DNA from: a virus
Virus record (IMG/VR): IMGVR_UViG_3300037507_003276
Coordinates: 1-50,018 of that record
Direction: 5' to 3' (one strand)
Length of the DNA stretch: 50,018 nucleotides
Made by a program: the position numbers and the translations under genes. The notes beneath the pieces were generated by a model that saw only the letters and a program-made list of their open reading frames with translations, did no database searches and was not told the DNA's origin. This document shows, piece by piece, positions 3,883 to 47,203 of the stretch (its first letter is position 1; each line of letters begins with the position of its first letter).

Positions 3883-4389
3883 TTATTTCTTTTTATAACC
3901 AGTTTTTTTCTTTACCCCTTTGACACATTTTTCAAATTTTTCTGGGTTTTCTTTTTTACCACCTGTTGATTTGTTACATATTGCCCAAGGATTTCCCTTT
4001 TCTTTAGTTTCTTTTGATTCTCTTTGGATACTTTCTGGTTTATCCATACTATCAATATCATTGATATCAAATTCTTCAGATTGAGCACCAGCTTCATACT
4101 CTGCTACTTGAGAAACACTTTGAATGTTATCATTTACAATTGCAATTTTTTCTAATTGCCAAGGTTCTAAATGTGCGCCAGACTCCAATGAGTCTAAAAG
4201 AGATTTTGCGTGTTTACAGATAGCATAAAGATTAGATTTTGCCATAGCCTCTTCTTCTCTTTCTGCTAAATGATCACACGAAAAAGGAGCTTCAGGGTTT
4301 TCTTCTGGCATACCCATTTCAATATCGTTGTCTTTTGATAAAATGCTTGAATATGCATTTTCTAGTAAAATTTGGTCTTTTGATCTCAT
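3883..4389 (-). CDS. Likely structural protein with N-terminal module
   Basis: The 168-residue protein starts MRSKDQILLENAYSSIL, a clear member of the shared N-terminal module. Its C-terminus (NPWAIC, then a lysine-rich KCVKGVKKKTGYKKK end) resembles short basic tails seen on many T4-like phage proteins. The middle is acidic and helical. A perfect TATAAATA box lies 6 nt upstream of the ATG, implying late expression. Exact function unknown. Confidence 0.75.
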   Translation of the reverse strand: MRSKDQILLENAYSSILSKDNDIEMGMPEENPEAPFSCDHLAEREEEAMAKSNLYAICKHAKSLLDSLESGAHLEPWQLEKIAIVNDNIQSVSQVAEYEAGAQSEEFDINDIDSMDKPESIQRESKETKEKGNPWAICNKSTGGKKENPEKFEKCVKGVKKKTGYKKK

Positions 4390-11783: not shown

Positions 11784-12265
11784 TCGGGAATGTTATTTAA
11801 TTTTTCCCATTTGGCAAAGTTTTTCTTTTCATGGATATAATATTGTCTATAAGAATAGACAGCATCGTGTGATTTATATTGATCAGGCATTGCTTGAGCA
11901 AACGGAGTAACTTGTTCGCCTTCGATCATATGTTGCATATCAGCTAAATGTTTAAGACCAGCTTCACAGCTATGAATCTTAGAATATCTTCTGGTATATT
12001 CCTCACACAAAGCCAAAGCATGTGTCATTGCCCACATAAAATTGATTCTGCTATCGCCACACCAACGAGTGCAAGGATGATTGTGATAACCACCCTTTAA
12101 TGGTGTTCCTTTGGATGTCAAAGGCATTTGGGCAGGTGTAGCACCATGACGAATAACAGCAGAACCTAATTGCTGATATAACTCAACACACATTTTAGGT
12201 ATGTGTTTATCACAGTGATATCTTGCTGCGGTAGCAGGATGCTCGTCTAAAATAAAAATATTCAT
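11768..12265 (-). CDS. Conserved phage protein, His/Cys-rich
   Basis: The 165 residues follow a pattern common in large phages: MNIFILDEHPATAARYHCDKH, a YHNHPCTRWC segment, a helix with LCEEYTRRY, TPFAQAMPDQYK and a final EWWIL. The conserved His, Cys and Trp positions suggest a DNA- or nucleotide-acting enzyme; some homologues may be annotated as DNA glycosylases, but I cannot confirm that. It abuts the dUTPase gene, whose final TAA overlaps its ATG by 1 nt. Confidence 0.7.
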   Translation of the reverse strand: MNIFILDEHPATAARYHCDKHIPKMCVELYQQLGSAVIRHGATPAQMPLTSKGTPLKGGYHNHPCTRWCGDSRINFMWAMTHALALCEEYTRRYSKIHSCEAGLKHLADMQHMIEGEQVTPFAQAMPDQYKSHDAVYSYRQYYIHEKKNFAKWEKLNNIPEWWIL

Positions 12266-21786: not shown

Positions 21787-22206
21787 ATGAAAACTTCTTT
21801 TTGTTTAAACTGTAAAAAAGAAATAAAATACGATGAAAGTAAAAGTTTTGGAAAGTATTGTAACAATACTTGTCAAGGAAACTATACATTTAACAATATA
21901 ACTATTCCTAAAATAGAATCTAATAAATGTTCACAAGCTGCTACTTTAAAAAAATTTTTACAATTTAAAAGAGGATATAAATGTGAGGTTTGTGAAATAT
22001 CAAATTGGAAAAATAAAGACATATCATTACATTTAGATCATATTGATGGTAATTCCGATAATAACTATCCTAATAATATTAGATTGCTTTGTCCAAATTG
22101 TCATTCACAGACAGACACTTATTGTAGCAGAAACAGAAAAAATTCTAAAAGATCCACATATAAGAAAAGATATAGGATTAAGAATTTAAACATACCACTG
22201 AGCTAA
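21787..22206 (+). CDS. HNH endonuclease inside tRNA cluster
   Basis: The 139 residues have an N-terminal zinc knuckle (CLNC, CNNTC), then the HNH core CEVC, LHLDHIDGN, and LLCPNCHSQT. It lies alone on the plus strand between minus-strand tRNA genes, typical of free-standing homing-type endonucleases that spread with tRNA clusters. Confidence 0.85.
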   Translation: MKTSFCLNCKKEIKYDESKSFGKYCNNTCQGNYTFNNITIPKIESNKCSQAATLKKFLQFKRGYKCEVCEISNWKNKDISLHLDHIDGNSDNNYPNNIRLLCPNCHSQTDTYCSRNRKNSKRSTYKKRYRIKNLNIPLS

Positions 22207-23084: not shown

Positions 23085-23360
23085 ATGAATAGAAAAGATT
23101 TAAATATGTTATCCGAAGCATATGAAAATGAAATATTAAAAGAATATAGTTCCGATTATTTTTTAAGAAAAGCTAGATCAAAAAGACTTGCTAAAGAAGC
23201 TTTTTTTAAAGCTTTAAATACAGTAGAGTCTCTTTTAAACGATCAAAACTTAAAAGATGCTTTTACTTCTGAAGATCTCAAGCCATTATATCAAAAATTT
23301 GATAAAATGCGAGAAATTATAATTGATCTTTCCCATTCACCTAGATACAAAGAATCTTAA
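23085..23360 (+). CDS. Small likely virion protein with N-terminal module
   Basis: The 91-residue protein starts MNRKDLNMLSEAYENEILKE, matching the shared N-terminal module, with LKE as a possible prohead-protease site. The rest is helical and charged. It ends convergently with the 23341 gene, overlapping by 20 nt. Confidence 0.7.
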   Translation: MNRKDLNMLSEAYENEILKEYSSDYFLRKARSKRLAKEAFFKALNTVESLLNDQNLKDAFTSEDLKPLYQKFDKMREIIIDLSHSPRYKES

Positions 23361-23588: not shown

Positions 23589-24080
23589 ATGAAAAGCAAA
23601 GATCAAATTTTATTAGAAGATGCTTATCAAAAAGTTTTAAAAGAAGTTGTTAATACAAACGAAGAATTACCCGATTCGGATATGAAAATGTCGGCAGGAA
23701 ATTTAGATAAACTCGATAAGTCGAACTTATATACACAGCAAGATGATCGTGAGGAAGAAAACGATTCTAACGAAGCCGTTTTAAATCCATCTGTTATGTT
23801 CGGATATCAAAATTTTCTTACCGAAGAAGGCGATAATCTGGATGTAATTGCAAAAAAACTTTTAGATAAATTTATTGATAGAGCATTTAAAAATCCTAAT
23901 GTCTTAGAATATTACTCTAAAAAATATTCATTATCTCCCTATGAAAATTTAGACAATGAGTTTGAGTTAATTCAAAAGCTTTTAGTTGATTTGTTAAAAA
24001 ACACTAGTTTTATAAAAATGGATTCAACAGCACTAGACAAAATAGCATGGGATATGCACGGAAGTTTTTTTGAAGATTAA
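23589..24080 (+). CDS. Likely virion protein with N-terminal module
   Basis: The 163-residue protein begins MKSKDQILLEDAYQKVLKE, almost identical to the leaders at 3883 and 37115. The remainder is acidic and helical without a known domain. A TAAATATA box at 23576 lies 5 nt before the ATG. It ends 1 nt before the convergent purA-like gene. Confidence 0.75.
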   Translation: MKSKDQILLEDAYQKVLKEVVNTNEELPDSDMKMSAGNLDKLDKSNLYTQQDDREEENDSNEAVLNPSVMFGYQNFLTEEGDNLDVIAKKLLDKFIDRAFKNPNVLEYYSKKYSLSPYENLDNEFELIQKLLVDLLKNTSFIKMDSTALDKIAWDMHGSFFED

Positions 24081-24081
24081 T

Positions 24082-25095
24082 TTAAATATTCGTCTGATCA
24101 CCAGAAAAAATAATATTATTTGGTTTTAATCCATTGATGTTTTGATTTACCAAAGACTTTTTAATGATGTCTTTTAACTGATCAAAAGAATTTGTTTCCA
24201 AAGATGTTTCGTAAAAATTATTAATTCGGAAGATTCCAACTTTTTCAAAAACATCACACTTATTGATGATTACTTTGGTTGAACCTGAAAGATTAATAGC
24301 ATTGTTTAATCTTCCAAAATTCAACCAATTCACAAGTCTTTTTCTTCCTGTAGTAGAACCAAATTCTTGACCAAGTTCAATTAACTTGTTTAGTTTTACA
24401 TCACTCCAAAGACATTCTGGAAACAACGGATCAACTCCACTTTTGGTATCATAGATTTTAGCGACACCAATAATATCACGAATTTTCTTGGGTGAAAATC
24501 CAAGCGAACAAGCATTGTGAGGAAATGTTTCAGAGCTTGTCACATAAGGATAATCACCGTAGTTGATATCCAACCAAATACTTTGAGCACCTTCACAAAG
24601 AATTTTTCCTTCTAATTTTCCATCCCAAATAAAATCTTTTAAGGGATTGAAGTTTGCTTTACTAACCTGAATACCAACACGATTTGCTTTGTCTGCATAA
24701 CAAGGAGCAATACCTTGACCTGTAGTTCCAAGTTTTGGTTTCAAATGTTTCAGATCATATTCAATGTGTGCATCCGTAATCACATGAGTATTTGGATGAA
24801 CTTTTACCAAAGATGTATCGAATCCATTTTCTTTTAGATATTCAATTTCTTTGAAAAACTTCTCAATATTCAGAACACAGTTTGGACCGATAACAGATTT
24901 CTTTCCATGAAAAACACCAGAAGGAATCAGATGGGTTTTGTATTTTTTCCCATCCAAATAAACAGTATGACCAGCATTTGGTCCACCATTCCAACGACAG
25001 ACCATATCATAGTCTTTGGCCATTGCACTTGAAATTTTACCCTTGCCTTCATCCCCCCAAGCAAGACCGACAATAACATCAACGTGTTTAATCAT
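24082..25095 (-). CDS. purA: Adenylosuccinate synthetase (short PurA/PurZ-type)
   Basis: The 337-residue enzyme has the P-loop-like GLAWGDEGKGK with Asp15 retained, GPNAGHT with catalytic His43, NPLKD, the TTGRKR loop and the NKCDV guanine-binding motif. It joins aspartate to IMP using GTP. The length matches short archaeal and phage enzymes rather than the roughly 430-residue bacterial form. Phage PurZ, which makes 2-aminoadenine, is a close relative, and as I recall has this Asp replaced, so the retained Asp favours true PurA activity. With GMP reductase at 44020 it would make AMP precursors from GMP. Confidence 0.9.
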   Translation of the reverse strand: MIKHVDVIVGLAWGDEGKGKISSAMAKDYDMVCRWNGGPNAGHTVYLDGKKYKTHLIPSGVFHGKKSVIGPNCVLNIEKFFKEIEYLKENGFDTSLVKVHPNTHVITDAHIEYDLKHLKPKLGTTGQGIAPCYADKANRVGIQVSKANFNPLKDFIWDGKLEGKILCEGAQSIWLDINYGDYPYVTSSETFPHNACSLGFSPKKIRDIIGVAKIYDTKSGVDPLFPECLWSDVKLNKLIELGQEFGSTTGRKRLVNWLNFGRLNNAINLSGSTKVIINKCDVFEKVGIFRINNFYETSLETNSFDQLKDIIKKSLVNQNINGLKPNNIIFSGDQTNI

Positions 25096-26259: not shown

Positions 26260-26814
26260 CTAATTATTTTGAAGTTGATAAATTTTTAATTTTTTTAATC
26301 TTTTTATAACTGCAACATCAGAAGCACCAACTATTTTTCCTATTTTAAGATTACTTAATTTTTGAATTACGTGTAAATCATATAAATCAAAATTATCCCA
26401 TTCGATTTGAGATTTTCTTTTTGCAGCACAAGTTTTTGAACAAGTTATAAGATAATTTGCTTTTTGCTTATTACAAATTGGACAATATGTTTTTATTTTT
26501 CTTTTTTCTTTTAAATCTACAAATTTTGGAATATTTTTTGGGATGTTAGTTTTACCTGCATGATATTCTCTGTGACAGTTAGCACACAATAAAACGCAAT
26601 TTTCTAACTCTTTTAATAAAATTTTCCATTGTTTAGGATTAGCTCTTATTCCTCCAAAAGATAATGTCTTTTGAGTAGGATCTATATGGTGTATATCAAA
26701 AGCTTCTTCACATTTATCATAACCACATATACAACATTTTCCTCCAAACCCTTCAACAATTAAATTTTTAGTATCTTTTCTCCAAGCTTTAACACGATCT
26801 GCATTTATACTCAT
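26260..26814 (-). CDS. HNH endonuclease with extra zinc knuckle
   Basis: The 184-residue protein has an HNH core (CCICGYDKC, FDIHHIDP, CVLLCANCHREYH) followed by a second zinc knuckle (CPIC, CSKTC) and a helical tail that could bind DNA. It lies upstream of tRNA-Asn, as the 21787 HNH gene lies beside other tRNAs, consistent with mobile endonucleases. Confidence 0.87.
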   Translation of the reverse strand: MSINADRVKAWRKDTKNLIVEGFGGKCCICGYDKCEEAFDIHHIDPTQKTLSFGGIRANPKQWKILLKELENCVLLCANCHREYHAGKTNIPKNIPKFVDLKEKRKIKTYCPICNKQKANYLITCSKTCAAKRKSQIEWDNFDLYDLHVIQKLSNLKIGKIVGASDVAVIKRLKKLKIYQLQNN

Positions 26815-26896
26815 ATATAATACTTACATATTATATGTAACATTTTATATAATGGTTTGGCTTAGTATAACACCATTTTTATACATTTAATAAAAG

Positions 26897-26970
26897 CTCC
26901 TTGGGCTGGATTCGAACCAGCATGATGAACAAATTAACAGTTTGTTGGCTTACCGTTAGCCCACCAAGGA
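26897..26970 (-). tRNA. tRNA-Asn (anticodon GTT)
   Basis: The stem ACAAA/TTTGT encloses CTGTTAA; the acceptor is TCCTTGG/CCAAGGA with discriminator G. It lies immediately downstream of the large structured RNA. Confidence 0.93.
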
Positions 26971-26984
26971 ATTAAATTATAAAA

Positions 26985-27551
26985 GAATTAAAAAATTTCG
27001 GCTGTCTTTACATACCATCATTTTCCTTTCGGAATCAAGCACGGACTCCCTATCTTTTCAGACGAGTCAACTTACGCACACCGTATGCGAGTCACGGCAA
27101 CCATCCCCCTTATTACTGTAACGAACAGCTTCTATTCATCAGTGGGTACTGACTAGAATCTCGTTAGGATTCTCGGATTATAAAAATTGGTGTTTTTGTC
27201 GCAAACAGGACCAGACTGACGATTAAGTTGCGCCTTAATCTGCTGGCATTATCTAAGCCAATCGTTGTTCGATTGGGCCATAATGCTTAGAATCAGAACA
27301 CAGAACCTTTACCCCTTTCGGGACAAGGGTTTTAGCCAATCTAGCTTCGGTTTACCCAGAACCTACACTCTTTTTTTTCACTTTTAAGTTATCCACTATG
27401 GGACTCTATATGTCTGATCAGAACACGGACACGTATCCGTTGTATAGAGAGGTAGAGTTGCATACCTTGTTACCTGATGGGTTTCGCATCAGGATTTTTA
27501 ATGCTGGTTCGACTAGCCAACATTAAACTTTTTTAAATTTTTCAAAGAACT
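26985..27551 (-). ncRNA. Large structured noncoding RNA (ROOL/GOLLD-like candidate)
   Basis: About 560 nt contains no plausible gene but many helices. On the minus strand three GAAA-capped hairpins are seen (near 27028, 27054 and 27319). Others are CCTGATG/CATCAGG (27474-27494), a GCATTAT/ATAATGC plus CCAATCG/CGATTGG hairpin (27245-27291), GATTAAG/CTTAATC (27221-27240) and CGCAT/GTGCG (near 27080). The loop CTAACGA near 27163 matches loop TCGTTA near 27121, and the CGCAA loop near 27229 matches TTGCG near 27200: both could be kissing contacts. The 5' and 3' ends can pair (AATTTAAAAAA with TTTTTTAATT). It has its own promoter and is followed by tRNA-Asn. Size, ornate folding and tRNA neighbour match the ROOL and GOLLD classes found in phages, but I could not compare sequences. 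Confidence 0.75.
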
Positions 27552-27557
27552 ATATCT

Positions 27558-27585
27558 AATTTACCAGATATATTTAATCAGTCAA
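27558..27585 (-). promoter_or_regulatory. Promoter for the large structured RNA
   Basis: TTGACT, 16 nt and TAAATT on the minus strand place the start near 27551, at the beginning of the structured region. The TGA of TTGACT is the stop codon of the 27582 gene. Confidence 0.6.
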
Positions 27586-27956
27586 TCTATTTTTTTATAT
27601 TTTAACCAATTACCCGATATTATTCTTTTATGTTTCTCAATCGATTTACAATAAAGATAAATCCAAGCTTTTATATTTTTTTTATTAGCTACTAATGTCG
27701 TTATATTTCTTTTATACTCTAATCCTTCATATTCGTCTATTTTTTTTAATATTTCTAAATCTAATATTTTTATTATATTTCCGATAACCATGTCATTTTT
27801 TTTATTAGATTTTATTGCTGCTGGATATTTTCCTGTATCATAAAGTTTACCTTGAAAAACAGCTTTAGATATATACAAACTATTTTTGTTTAAAAGTTTA
27901 TGTATTTTTGTTTTTTTATTTTCTATTAAAGTACCGTAAACAAATAATAAATCCAT
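27582..27956 (-). CDS. Gamma-glutamylcyclotransferase-like (AIG2/GGCT) protein
   Basis: The 124 residues start with the diagnostic LFVYGTLIE motif, followed by a LYDTGKYPAAI strand and IDEYEGLEYKR, with the Glu expected in the active site. Family members cleave gamma-glutamyl groups to 5-oxoproline. Phage homologues are frequent; their substrate is unknown. Confidence 0.8.
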   Translation of the reverse strand: MDLLFVYGTLIENKKTKIHKLLNKNSLYISKAVFQGKLYDTGKYPAAIKSNKKNDMVIGNIIKILDLEILKKIDEYEGLEYKRNITTLVANKKNIKAWIYLYCKSIEKHKRIISGNWLKYKKID

Positions 27957-31827: not shown

Positions 31828-32556
31828 TTAAAATTCGGGCATTTTTGGTTTTTCTTCTTCTGGTGTTTCTGGCTGAGATTGGCCTTGTTTTTTGAAAGCA
31901 ATAGAAATTTTCTTTTGCATTTCATCGCTGTCCCCAGCAATCTCATATGCTGATTTGCCACCACCACTCAGTTCATACCATTTAGCACCTTCTTTGTTGG
32001 CACTATCAGTTGCTGGTTTAAGTTTGCCTGTTGCTGGATCAACTTCTGAAGGAGAAGTATAACGATAAGCGTTTCCTTCTTTATCTTTAACTGTTGATCC
32101 AATTCCAATACCAGAAACATCAACTTGCGATTCTGGAAGCTGTGAGCTTAAATAAGATGTGAAATCTTGTGTTATTTGGGAAGCAAATTGTTCGGCTGTA
32201 AGATTTTCAGGATTTAAATCTAATTTGTTTAAATCATTAATGACTTCTTGAGCAATCTTTTGAATGCTGCCTGTATGAGATTTCATGATTGAGTTTATTT
32301 TACCAGCCATACCAGCTTCTGATGCAGATTTTTGTAAACGCTCACCTGTTTGTTGTAACATTTTTCCTGCTGTTGGACTCAGCATACCAGCAGCTTTTCC
32401 TAATCCTTTTGCTGCCATTGCGCCTAATCTTTTACCAGGCGCAATACCTTTAATTGCACCACCAATTTTGGCTTTAGCGACATCAAACATGCCTTCTTCT
32501 AAATTTTGATAAACTTTTAAGTAAGCTTCGTTAATGCTAATATCATCTTTTCTCAT
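31828..32556 (-). CDS. Likely virion protein with N-terminal module
   Basis: The 242-residue protein starts MRKDDISINEAYLKVYQNLEEG, a variant of the shared leader ending in LEE-G. An Ala/Gly/Lys-rich region (residues 30-90) and an acidic C-terminal half follow. A late-type box AATAAGTATA is upstream (32561-32570). Probably a head or scaffold-associated protein. Confidence 0.72.
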   Translation of the reverse strand: MRKDDISINEAYLKVYQNLEEGMFDVAKAKIGGAIKGIAPGKRLGAMAAKGLGKAAGMLSPTAGKMLQQTGERLQKSASEAGMAGKINSIMKSHTGSIQKIAQEVINDLNKLDLNPENLTAEQFASQITQDFTSYLSSQLPESQVDVSGIGIGSTVKDKEGNAYRYTSPSEVDPATGKLKPATDSANKEGAKWYELSGGGKSAYEIAGDSDEMQKKISIAFKKQGQSQPETPEEEKPKMPEF

Positions 32557-37114: not shown

Positions 37115-37429
37115 TTAGTTGTTTTGATTATCTTCTTCGTCAAACTTCAAACTCATTCTTTGTTTTAAGAATTCTTCAGAGTTTGGTCCTTTTGGTTCTT
37201 CTTTAGTGAACATGTCACCAACCAATGGTTCCAATGATTTTAAAAGTTTTTCTAACTTTCCATAAGCAGCACCAAACTCACCACTCATCAAATCTTGTTC
37301 GATTTCTTTTAAATCTTGTGGTGCGTTTTGTTGTGCATCAGAAGCACTATCATCTTCATCGAAACCGCTTATTTCATTTAAAATTTTATTATAAGCTTGT
37401 TCTAAAAGCATTTGGTCTTTTGTTTTCAT
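37115..37429 (-). CDS. Likely virion protein with N-terminal module
   Basis: The 104-residue acidic protein starts MKTKDQMLLEQAYNKILNE, almost identical to leaders at 3883 and 23589, with TATAAGTAT at 37437-37445 upstream. The remainder is acidic and helical. Confidence 0.75.
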   Translation of the reverse strand: MKTKDQMLLEQAYNKILNEISGFDEDDSASDAQQNAPQDLKEIEQDLMSGEFGAAYGKLEKLLKSLEPLVGDMFTKEEPKGPNSEEFLKQRMSLKFDEEDNQNN

Positions 37430-40131: not shown

Positions 40132-40588
40132 GGGGGTGTACTGGTTTCGACAGATAGTTGAAACTAAAAGTGCATGTCGAGGTTAATCGATGGCCTCGTA
40201 AAAAATCGATTAAAAAACTAAATGCAGAAGATTTCACTTCTGATCTCTTGGCAGAAGCCGAGAGTATTTTCAACAACGCTGATGAGGTTCTCGCCTCATA
40301 TGCGGATGAAGAGATGCTCTTAGCCGCCTAAGAACCTTGATTCTGGATCCTCTAAAGAATCATTGATAGCAGAGGTTGTTAGATTGTTGGTAGTTCTAAC
40401 GTAACAACAAAATATCAACCGTATGTAGATTGCGATAATGTCTACAGGCAGACTATAAACTCAGTTAGTGTCACTATGCAGCCTAAAGTCTCCGTTACCG
40501 TATGGTGGCTGAAATGCTAAAGACACTCAAACATGTAGACCTTTTAGCCTAGATTATTTGGACAGGAGTTCAACTCTCCTCACCTCCA
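40132..40588 (+). ncRNA. ssrA: tmRNA (transfer-messenger RNA) with long tag frame
   Basis: The ends form an alanine acceptor GGGGGTG/CACCTCC with G3:U70, discriminator A and a T-arm ACAGGAGTTCAACTCTCCT; CCA is not encoded. Pseudoknot 1 (CGAGG/CCTCG with AATCGAT/ATCGATT) aligns with E. coli tmRNA, and 12 nt after it comes the resume codon GCA at 40224. The tag frame runs 35 codons to TAA at 40329, starting AEDFTSDL and ending ADEEMLLAA; ending in LAA is the usual degradation signal. tmRNA rescues stalled ribosomes with host SmpB. Confidence 0.93.
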
Positions 40589-40597
40589 CTTTCAAAA

Positions 40598-44019: not shown

Positions 44020-44961
44020 TTATTTGATACTAATATATTCAGTTTGATTAAAACAACTCAAATCTTTTCCACCCGCATAACTGATAGAGCTTTGGAGTGC
44101 TTGGGTCATTTCACGCAATCTTTCTTCCAAAGATTTATGAGGCTCCAAATCCAAGATTGTTCCTTCGATATGGTTATCATGTCCTTTGTTGTAAGCACTG
44201 GCAGATCCATAATAAACTTTTCTACCATTCACAACCAATGCAGGGGAATCATCACAGGCAGCAAACATAGATCCTGCCATAACCCAATCTGCACCAGCAA
44301 CTAATGCCTTGGCAATATCTCCATAATGATTGATTCCACCATCACCAAACATTGGTTTATTAGCAAACTTTGCACATTCAATGAGCGCAGTAAACATGGG
44401 AACATGAAAGCCTGTTTGGAATTTTGTCGTGCAAGCCTTGCCAGGTCCAATGCCAATGCGAGTAGCATCTGCTCCAGCATCCTCCAAATAACGGACACCA
44501 CTTGGTGTTGTTACGTTTCCTGCAATAATAAAAACATTGGGAAAAATATTACGAATTTTATCAATCGTTTTTTTAACTTTGATATGATGTCCATGAGCAA
44601 CATCAATCGTAATGTAATCTAATCTCCAACCATTCTTGTGAATTTCAACAAGTTCATCTTCGGAGTCTTGGTTTACGCCTGTACTGATACTGACAAATTT
44701 ATAACCTTCTTCGTTTGCTTTTTTGACAAAAGGAACTGTCACCGAATCAAAACGGTGCATCATATAAAAGTAACCGTTGTCGCTCAACCATTTACACCAG
44801 TCAGCATGAATTACTGTCTTCATGTTTGATGGAACAACTGGTAATTTAAATTTATGATTACCCAATTGAATTGAAGTGTCAGCAAGTTTTCTCGATTCCA
44901 GTTCAGAATATTTTGGAATCAAATAAACATCATCATAATTAAGAGCGGTATATTTCAACAT
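44020..44961 (-). CDS. guaC: GMP reductase
   Basis: The 313-residue protein matches the Bacillus-type GuaC along its length: NYDDVYLIPK, the VVPSNM motif, NNYFYIMHR-like YFYMMHR, VAHGHH, GNVTTPSG, GIGPGKACTTK with catalytic Cys177, and SSISYAGG. It reduces GMP to IMP with NADPH. It lacks CBS domains, unlike most IMP dehydrogenases. With the PurA-like gene it would divert guanine to adenine nucleotides. Confidence 0.9.
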   Translation of the reverse strand: MLKYTALNYDDVYLIPKYSELESRKLADTSIQLGNHKFKLPVVPSNMKTVIHADWCKWLSDNGYFYMMHRFDSVTVPFVKKANEEGYKFVSISTGVNQDSEDELVEIHKNGWRLDYITIDVAHGHHIKVKKTIDKIRNIFPNVFIIAGNVTTPSGVRYLEDAGADATRIGIGPGKACTTKFQTGFHVPMFTALIECAKFANKPMFGDGGINHYGDIAKALVAGADWVMAGSMFAACDDSPALVVNGRKVYYGSASAYNKGHDNHIEGTILDLEPHKSLEERLREMTQALQSSISYAGGKDLSCFNQTEYISIK

Positions 44962-46732: not shown

Positions 46733-47203
46733 TTAAAATTCTACAATACACTTTTCTGGAACGATATTCAAATCTTTATCCACGAAAAGTTTTATACTTG
46801 TGGGATAAAATTGTTTACCTTCCAGATGTGATGTTTCAAATTGGGCATCTGATAAATCTGTTTCAGGCATTTCTTTGATTACCTTTTCTTCGAACTCTTC
46901 GTCCATTACCGTGAACTTGAAAGGCAAGAGTTTAAAACCATAGGCATACATATTCTTAATGCCGTATTTGCGGTATTCTATTTCAATCTTGTATTTGATG
47001 GTTACTTCATCATTTTTTTTGTCAATCACAATGCTGTCATTTTGAACATTGAGATGGGAAAGATCTTTTACTTCTTGGCTATCGGTATCGATATAATCGA
47101 CATCAACAGGAGAAATAAATTCCATGTCTTCAACTCCTTCTTTGACCAATCCTTTGACCTTGTTGTAACAGGTTTCCAATAACATTGCATCTTTGTTTCT
47201 CAT
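46733..47203 (-). CDS. Likely virion protein with N-terminal module
   Basis: The 156 residues start MRNKDAMLLETCYNKVKG, a variant of the shared leader, and continue as a beta-rich, acidic protein. A GTAAATTA stretch precedes the ATG. Structural role inferred from the leader. Confidence 0.72.
   Translation of the reverse strand: MRNKDAMLLETCYNKVKGLVKEGVEDMEFISPVDVDYIDTDSQEVKDLSHLNVQNDSIVIDKKNDEVTIKYKIEIEYRKYGIKNMYAYGFKLLPFKFTVMDEEFEEKVIKEMPETDLSDAQFETSHLEGKQFYPTSIKLFVDKDLNIVPEKCIVEF

Follow-up and report, generated by a model that had tools for sequence, protein, structure and literature searches.

A candidate new class of large phage RNA made of separable domains and encoded beside tRNA genes

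Within a 50,018-nucleotide stretch of virus DNA (IMG/VR record IMGVR_UViG_3300037507_003276, positions 1 to 50,018; hereafter the window) lies a gene-free region that we rate as encoding a new class among the large structured phage RNAs near tRNAs, set apart by domain shuffling. Judged by sequence comparison the RNA is modular, its 5' and 3' modules occurring apart in other phage contigs, and it looks more like separable modules in a row than a single interwoven fold. The original prediction was of a large ornate RNA with its own promoter, either related to the ROOL or GOLLD RNAs or a new class. Homologues with compensatory changes, together with conserved promoter and leader sequences, argue for such an RNA. 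The same homologues, and the lack of a match to any Rfam family, point to a new class.

As predicted, the region contains about 560 nt with no gene, the longest open reading frame overlapping 26990-27570 being 42 amino acids (Table 1). Folding of the minus strand between 26972 and 27590 gives a minimum free energy of -164 kcal/mol and z = -3.94, with none of 20 shuffles as low, compared with z = -1.70 and one of 20 shuffles for the plus strand. The minus strand is thus the one that carries the structure. In its minimum free energy fold the pairing of the two ends falls partly in promoter DNA. The three GAAA hairpins expected on the same strand are present, in that three of the eight GAAA sequences close a stem of at least 4 bp (G-U allowed); these lie near 27319, 27059 and 27030. 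The first is missing in five of nine aligned sequences and by eye has no clear counterpart in locus L119, while the loop near 27030 is, by eye, GAAA, GCAA, GTAA or otherwise changed among relatives.

Table 1. Features of the RNA locus and of the second leader copy, in window coordinates
Feature	Position	Strand	Remarks
Gene-free RNA stretch	27590-26972	minus	non-coding, structured; directly upstream of tRNA-Asn
gamma-Glutamylcyclotransferase-like gene	27582-27956	minus	upstream neighbour of the RNA stretch
sigma70-like promoter TTGACT-16-TAAATT	27558..27585	minus	seen as sequence; equal geometry in relatives
boxA-like leader GTTCTTTGAAAA	27539..27550	minus	7 nt past the -10 box; second exact copy before tmRNA
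Whole 5' module	27181..27553	minus	occurs without the 3' module before tRNA-Met in L120, L125, L128, L129
Leader hairpin TTTAATGTTGG...CCAGCATTAAA	27497..27527	minus	seen as sequence; complementary arms, equivalent place in relatives
Hairpin CCTGATG...CATCAGG	27473..27493	minus	kept in L124, L130; changed in L122
Hairpin AAGGTATGCAACTCTACCTC	27449..27468	minus	identical in 9/9 aligned sequences
Closing domain of 5' module	27189..27307	minus	outer helix GTGTT/AACAC and two inner hairpins
3' module (module h)	26996..27182	minus	compact domain, possibly pseudoknotted; alone in L135, L136, L137
tRNA-Asn(gtt)	26970-26896	minus	25 nt downstream of 3' module
Second exact GTTCTTTGAAAA	40117-40128	plus	3 nt before tmRNA gene (40132-40589)

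Elsewhere in the window, three small proteins (3883-4389, minus; 23589-24080, plus; 37115-37429, minus) have by eye a similar start, M-x-x-K-D-Q-x-L-L-E-x-A-Y, with variants at 23085-23360 (plus), 31828-32556 (minus) and 46733-47203 (minus). These proteins otherwise differ from each other, and the shared start recalls the capsid-targeting peptide of T4 internal head proteins. There is also an adenylosuccinate synthetase-like gene (24082-25095, minus; Pfam), reminiscent of PurZ of phages with 2-aminoadenine DNA, and by eye an IMP dehydrogenase/GMP reductase-like protein (44020-44961, minus).

By ribonucleotide reductase the best annotated phages are only 48-49% identical, and we therefore sought kin in IMG/VR. 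We kept 80 of 101 loci found by ribonucleotide reductase, and searched 50 records whole with the RNA. Seven of the 50 matched by blastn at E ≤ 1.2e-6 (G001, G002, G003, G005, G006, G007 and G010), with G001 and G002 100% identical to the window; 13 further records at E 0.001-0.1 (20 of 50 at E ≤ 0.1) were set aside as AT-rich chance matches. A model of module h built on nine seed sequences, R1, finds six of the 50 kin records; R1 matches in seven records, at E 0.001-0.31, were put down to chance. The family is small on these counts, the records being possibly fragments. Pattern scans added loci L119, L120, L125, L130-L132, L135-L137, L150 and L184-L190, and the last such scan gave no new locus. 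Pattern matches L123, L127, L134, L138, L139, L141-L149 and L151-L158 were judged spurious by reading. Five contigs (L139, L144, L145, L146 and L147) carry a different conserved element with CTGTAATAAGGGGGGTGGGG; R1 has no significant match in L139, L146 or L147 (best E 0.36). In the phage collection, blastn of the window RNA gave short matches only (E 0.6), and L164, L128, L119 and L136 gave none. In bacterial genomes one motif had no match and another had three, which by eye are coding or unrelated.

The arrangement of the family was examined with profiles of ten modules, run over 22 phage loci, T4 and two stretches of phage K (Table 2). RNAs of the window's type (type 1) precede tRNA-Asn or tRNA-Met in most cases, and one relative, L122, has module C inserted between the 5' module and h. 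Modules C and h recur in a second type of RNA (type 2), combined in varying ways with seven further domains, before tRNA-Cys. Both types occur in one contig in G006 (L128 and L191) and in G053 (L125 and L184). Module C of L122 is 82% identical to that of type-2 L186 (blastn, E 3e-22), and C is also found in type-2 L184.

Table 2. Order of modules in the window and in related loci. Each profile matches its own seeds by construction, and boxA here is a loose text match
Locus	Modules and following tRNA
Window, L124, L130	boxA, 5' module, h, then tRNA-Asn
L122	boxA, 5' module, C, h, then tRNA-Asn
L120, L125, L128, L129	boxA, 5' module, then tRNA-Met; without h
L119	boxA, long different 5' part, closing domain; no tRNA just behind
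L176	boxA only
L184	ab, ab, j, boxA, e, C, f, h, then tRNA-Cys
L185	ab, ab, j, boxA, i, e, f, h, then tRNA-Cys
L186	ab, ab, j, boxA, d, C, f, then tRNA-Cys; without h
L187	ab, ab, j, boxA, e, f, h, then tRNA-Cys
L188	ab, boxA, d, f, second boxA-like match; no tRNA found
L191	ab, boxA, ab, e, f, g, h, then tRNA-Cys
L133	j, boxA, ab, i, f, g, h; no tRNA-Cys found
L150	boxA, ab, f, g, h, then tRNA-Cys
L190	boxA, ab, f, partial g, then contig end
L135-L137	h alone

Covariation in related phages had been proposed as a check on the RNA, and it is found in both parts of the molecule. Module h taken alone has z of only -1.03, with 29 of 200 shuffles as low, so that its support comes from covariation and not from stability. 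Beyond its seeds R1 also finds L184, L185, L187/L189 and L191, at 51.6-114 bits. Over 13 distinct sequences 94.6% of cells are paired across 30 pairs, and 16 of the 30 pairs have double changes; none of 500 shuffles reaches either value or the covariation score, and for further pair types 11 of 500 did equally well. When the partners are slid, pairing is 30-52%. The alignment was fitted to R1 and therefore leans towards the structure; in the MAFFT alignment alone 13 of the 30 pairs have double changes. The helices of module h are thus kept by compensatory changes, as looked for in a new RNA family.

Further features of module h are less certain. The sequences weakly suggest that the loop CCC pairs with the GGGGG tract in a pseudoknot: CCC/GGG becomes CCT/AGG in L184 and L187, and the pairing would compete with one modelled helix. 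A second pseudoknot, between the loop CGGY and the invariant GCCG tail, would be consistent with the alignment. In 13 of 14 rows no site matches the anti-SD better than a Shine-Dalgarno-like tract of the module, with 0-10 of 200 shuffles equal to it in twelve rows and 55 of 200 in L122; in L185 the best anti-SD site is elsewhere (22 of 200 shuffles equal). We treat the tract as a lead only, because the rows are related and it is perhaps part of the fold. Read as a possible hammerhead, the CTGATGA...GAAGC of the module lacks the second stem and Rfam gives no match, and the idea was abandoned.

The 5' module alone folds with z = -2.99 (one of 100 shuffles as low), and RNAalifold on the MAFFT alignment finds double changes in eight of 36 pairs over the whole of it. 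Within the closing domain eight of 19 pairs have double changes in four relatives, a number reached by none of 500 shuffles, with four of 500 doing equally well for further pair types; the structure was itself hand-drawn from those four relatives, which biases the result towards the fold. R2, a model built from these four, scores 40.7 bits in the window (E 2.7e-7), 55.1 bits in L119 and 27.0-28.4 bits in L124, L122 and L130. In the 23-source search it matched nine, its own four seeds included, and found nothing in the type-2 loci L133, L150 and L191 or in L176. We therefore do not claim a common origin for the 5' parts of the two types. Matches of R2 in G026, G050 and G016 resemble coding DNA by eye and were dropped. 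Two of the smaller hairpins need care in reading: the arms of the leader hairpin were hand-picked to pair, which biases the stem-arm test, and the fair test of AAGGTATGCAACTCTACCTC is L122, L124, L128 and L129, found by blastn, because L119, L120, L125 and L130 were found by a pattern derived from this hairpin.

In record G022 there is a reduced relative of 250 nt (L176, 1270-1520, minus), which begins near the boxA-like element and ends in a fold like the closing domain. By eye it has a T-arm-like stem-loop, and there is no tRNA in the 3 kb of sequence covered. Its fold has z = -3.41, and R2, with filters off and the search confined to 551 bases, scores it at 16.9 bits (E 6.5e-4).

The other modules have structures less well supported than those of module h and the closing domain. 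Module C is closed by GAGACG/CGTCTC, and four of 44 pairs are changed on both sides in three sequences. The closing helix of module ab is TCTGCC/GGCAGA in some sequences and AGCC/GGCT in others, with three of six pairs changed on both sides and 88.3% of cells paired; one of 500 shuffles reaches its covariation score, and 78 of 500 its number of changed pairs. Modules d, e, f, g, i and j are conserved blocks only.

The -35 box of the predicted promoter does contain the TGA stop codon of the upstream gene, within TTGACT-16-TAAATT. A promoter scan of the window found three sites where 6.4 are expected in shuffles, which is not above chance and so by itself no evidence; it is conservation that supports the promoter, since promoters of matching geometry precede the RNA in relatives. 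In type-1 RNAs and in G022 the boxA-like element follows, by eye, a -35 box of TTGA type and a TA-rich -10 box at a distance of 5-7 nt. L119 has instead TATAAATA, and this resembles a T4 late promoter.

The leader GTTCTTTGAAAA likely lies at or beside the transcription start of the window RNA. There are two exact copies in the window against 0.11 expected, and one of 100 shuffles reaches two. Across 18 records it occurs exactly 11 times, compared with three for the reversed pattern. All 11 precede a structured RNA (eight of the window type, two a tmRNA or its remnant in G001 and G054, and one in G022, where it starts the reduced relative), these copies not being independent, several being homologues of one another and the RNA itself having led to some of the records. 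The window's phage-encoded tmRNA (40132-40589, plus) has the tag ADEEMLLAA and the boxA-like leader. In G054 (L182) the same leader begins a tmRNA-like gene that ARAGORN does not call and that looks decayed; the tmRNA of G010 carries ATTCTTTGAAATTT where that of the window has GTTCTTTGAAAA.

We read this element as boxA because GCTCTTTAACAATTT, which lies some 140 bases ahead of the gene in the leader of E. coli rrsA, resembles both GTTCTTTGAAAA and GTTCTTTTACAATTT; the reading is one by likeness to E. coli. GTTCTTTTACAATTT is present in four type-2 loci (L133, L150, L190 and L191), and is identical at 13 of 15 positions to a stretch of the rrsA leader. A boxA-like sequence is thus found just upstream of structured RNA genes. 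The available passages of PMC4807359, which give no sequence, describe boxA with NusB as resisting Rho termination. Like the boxA leaders of rRNA operons, the phage element heads a long untranslated RNA. It differs in that the type-1 element sits at the likely transcription start and not inside a long leader, while the type-2 element sits between modules.

The promoter and boxA-like leader that start type-1 RNAs would suit a cis-acting leader of a tRNA operon, one whose folds and boxA would govern either readthrough into the tRNA genes behind them or the processing of those tRNAs. Where the sequence extends far enough, most loci do have a tRNA 3-25 nt behind the RNA on the same strand. Yet there is none just behind L119 or L176, in L135 and L137 module h occurs on its own, and in L136 it faces tRNAs on the opposite strand. 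L133 keeps its RNA without tRNA-Cys, and the structure seems larger than the task needs. We conclude that the RNA is not just a tRNA leader, and consider purely cis action unlikely. In L133 the tRNA-Cys is absent at about 11970-12030, with the upstream RNA and the post-tRNA sequence kept, unlike its relatives.

HNH endonuclease genes at 26260-26814 (minus) and 21787-22206 (plus) sit among the tRNA genes of the window, and such enzymes may drive exchange of tRNAs and RNA modules. The first lies just past tRNA-Asn and homing could spread domains, so the RNA might itself be the decayed remains of a mobile element, for instance a group I or group II intron. This is extremely improbable: no Rfam intron family matches, no gene is interrupted, the promoter-like site and leader are conserved, and the compensatory changes show selection.

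Indeed, searches with Rfam 15 at the gathering score found only tRNA and tmRNA in the window and in L114-L118. At E ≤ 10 the interval 26800-27700 gave tRNA and five sub-threshold matches, and part of L119, L150 with L118, and L176 gave only tRNA, sub-threshold matches or none. These results also bear on the idea of an anti-defence arsenal, in which each domain would act as a decoy for, or would inhibit, some enzyme of host defence, for example a nuclease that cuts tRNA or an RNA-guided system, with an arms race driving the shuffling. Separate domains are gained, lost and recombined in closely related phages, and the RNA is located among tRNAs; phage tRNAs are often counter-defence, and tandem pseudoknotted units recall type III antitoxin RNAs. 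But the searched stretches match no Rfam family beyond tRNA and tmRNA at the gathering score, and module h is strongly conserved and not fast-changing. We regard this reading as quite doubtful.

Membership of ROOL or GOLLD, the other half of the original prediction, did not hold. The ROOL covariance model RF03087 matched none of 22 records at E ≤ 1, while the same model found its known member in plasmid pMP118 at 130.4 bits; with the control working, ROOL is excluded as a detectable relative. GOLLD (RF02032) matched none of the 22 over its gathering score of 150 bits, in a search run without a positive control, and the two weak matches that it gave (14.4 and 7.7 bits) fall in other parts of their records. 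The window RNA might still work as these RNAs do, forming a homo-oligomeric cage in infected cells without detectable homology. GNRA loops could form intermolecular A-minor contacts, and the size of the RNA, close to that of ROOL (574-position model), and its place beside tRNAs in phages are similar. The accessible text of PMC12286853 describes ROOL as phage-borne, beside tRNAs, non-coding and of unknown function, and GOLLD as phage-borne and tRNA-adjacent, with conserved 3' and variable 5' regions forming separate domains, which likewise counts for a cage. Apart from the unmatched models, single domains exist and GNRA hairpins come and go among relatives, a poor fit with a fixed interface. 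Unlike GOLLD, the window family has module h alone and with other partners. ROOL forms an octameric and GOLLD a 14-mer RNA cage; for the window RNA we think a cage very unlikely. As for what GOLLD, a possible analogue, does, it bound ribosomes in pull-downs according to the portion available of PMC12286853, and a GOLLD RNA was dispensable for phage production in one prophage according to that of PMC7567579.

Two other sets of phage RNA invite comparison. The excerpts available of PMC7698491 and PMC9241854 place kayvirus lncRNA1 and lncRNA2 in regions of 570 and 525 bp next to tRNA genes, and report abundant transcription of the phage K lncRNAs. The window RNA is like these in size and tRNA-adjacent position; R1 and R2 found nothing in bases 1-50000 of phage K, nor did the module profiles in its two tRNA-flanking regions. 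RNAs C and D of T4 (species 1 and 2), described in the part available of PMC3014915 as stable non-tRNA RNAs of unknown role, likewise come from a phage tRNA region, but unlike the window RNA are only 119-139 nt. Run with filters off over the T4 tRNA region, R1 reaches at best a non-significant 2.6 bits, and the module profiles have no match. Among the literature matches listed, to the extent that these could be consulted and with subscription papers largely out of scope, the RNA family is described nowhere.

Taken as a whole, we think it rather probable that this is a new family of stable phage RNAs with separable domains, antiterminated, given a 3' end by tRNA processing, and acting in trans. 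Transcription would start at the sigma70-type promoter that overlaps the tail of the preceding gene, a promoter whose sequence is seen and whose activity is presumed. The transcript would begin at or near the boxA-like leader, a sequence shared with the tmRNA of the phage. By analogy with rRNA, the leader would recruit host Nus factors, so that polymerase crosses the long untranslated RNA without Rho termination, passing through the 5' module, the 3' module and then tRNA-Asn. The 3' end is probably made by tRNA processing, tRNA-Asn(gtt) being the likely site; a cut by RNase P at the tRNA, and perhaps by RNase E in AU-rich linkers, would free the RNA or single domains. Comparison of the loci shows that domains are gained, lost and recombined among phages. 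The mature RNA most likely acts in trans, since modules persist without a tRNA behind them. Our best guess, and a weak one, is that it may act on the translation machinery, because of its tRNA and tmRNA company and the Shine-Dalgarno-like tract in module h. We put forward more tentatively, as something that may well prove wrong, a broader scheme in which about ten RNA domains of roughly 45-200 nt are recombined into strings around an rRNA-like boxA before a tRNA, and act in trans on host ribosomes or defences.

We know of no established function for ROOL, GOLLD or other large phage RNAs. The present family offers natural experiments, with the same domain found alone, fused to varied partners, inserted, and lost in close relatives, and to our knowledge none of those RNAs provides the like; the leader common to the RNA and the tmRNA adds to their value. 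With it one can test whether large phage RNAs work as complete assemblies or domain by domain, and whether rRNA antitermination has been borrowed by phages for their production. Domain shuffling, if true, would be the RNA counterpart of modular multi-domain proteins, and would provide a route to the origin of giant phage RNAs.
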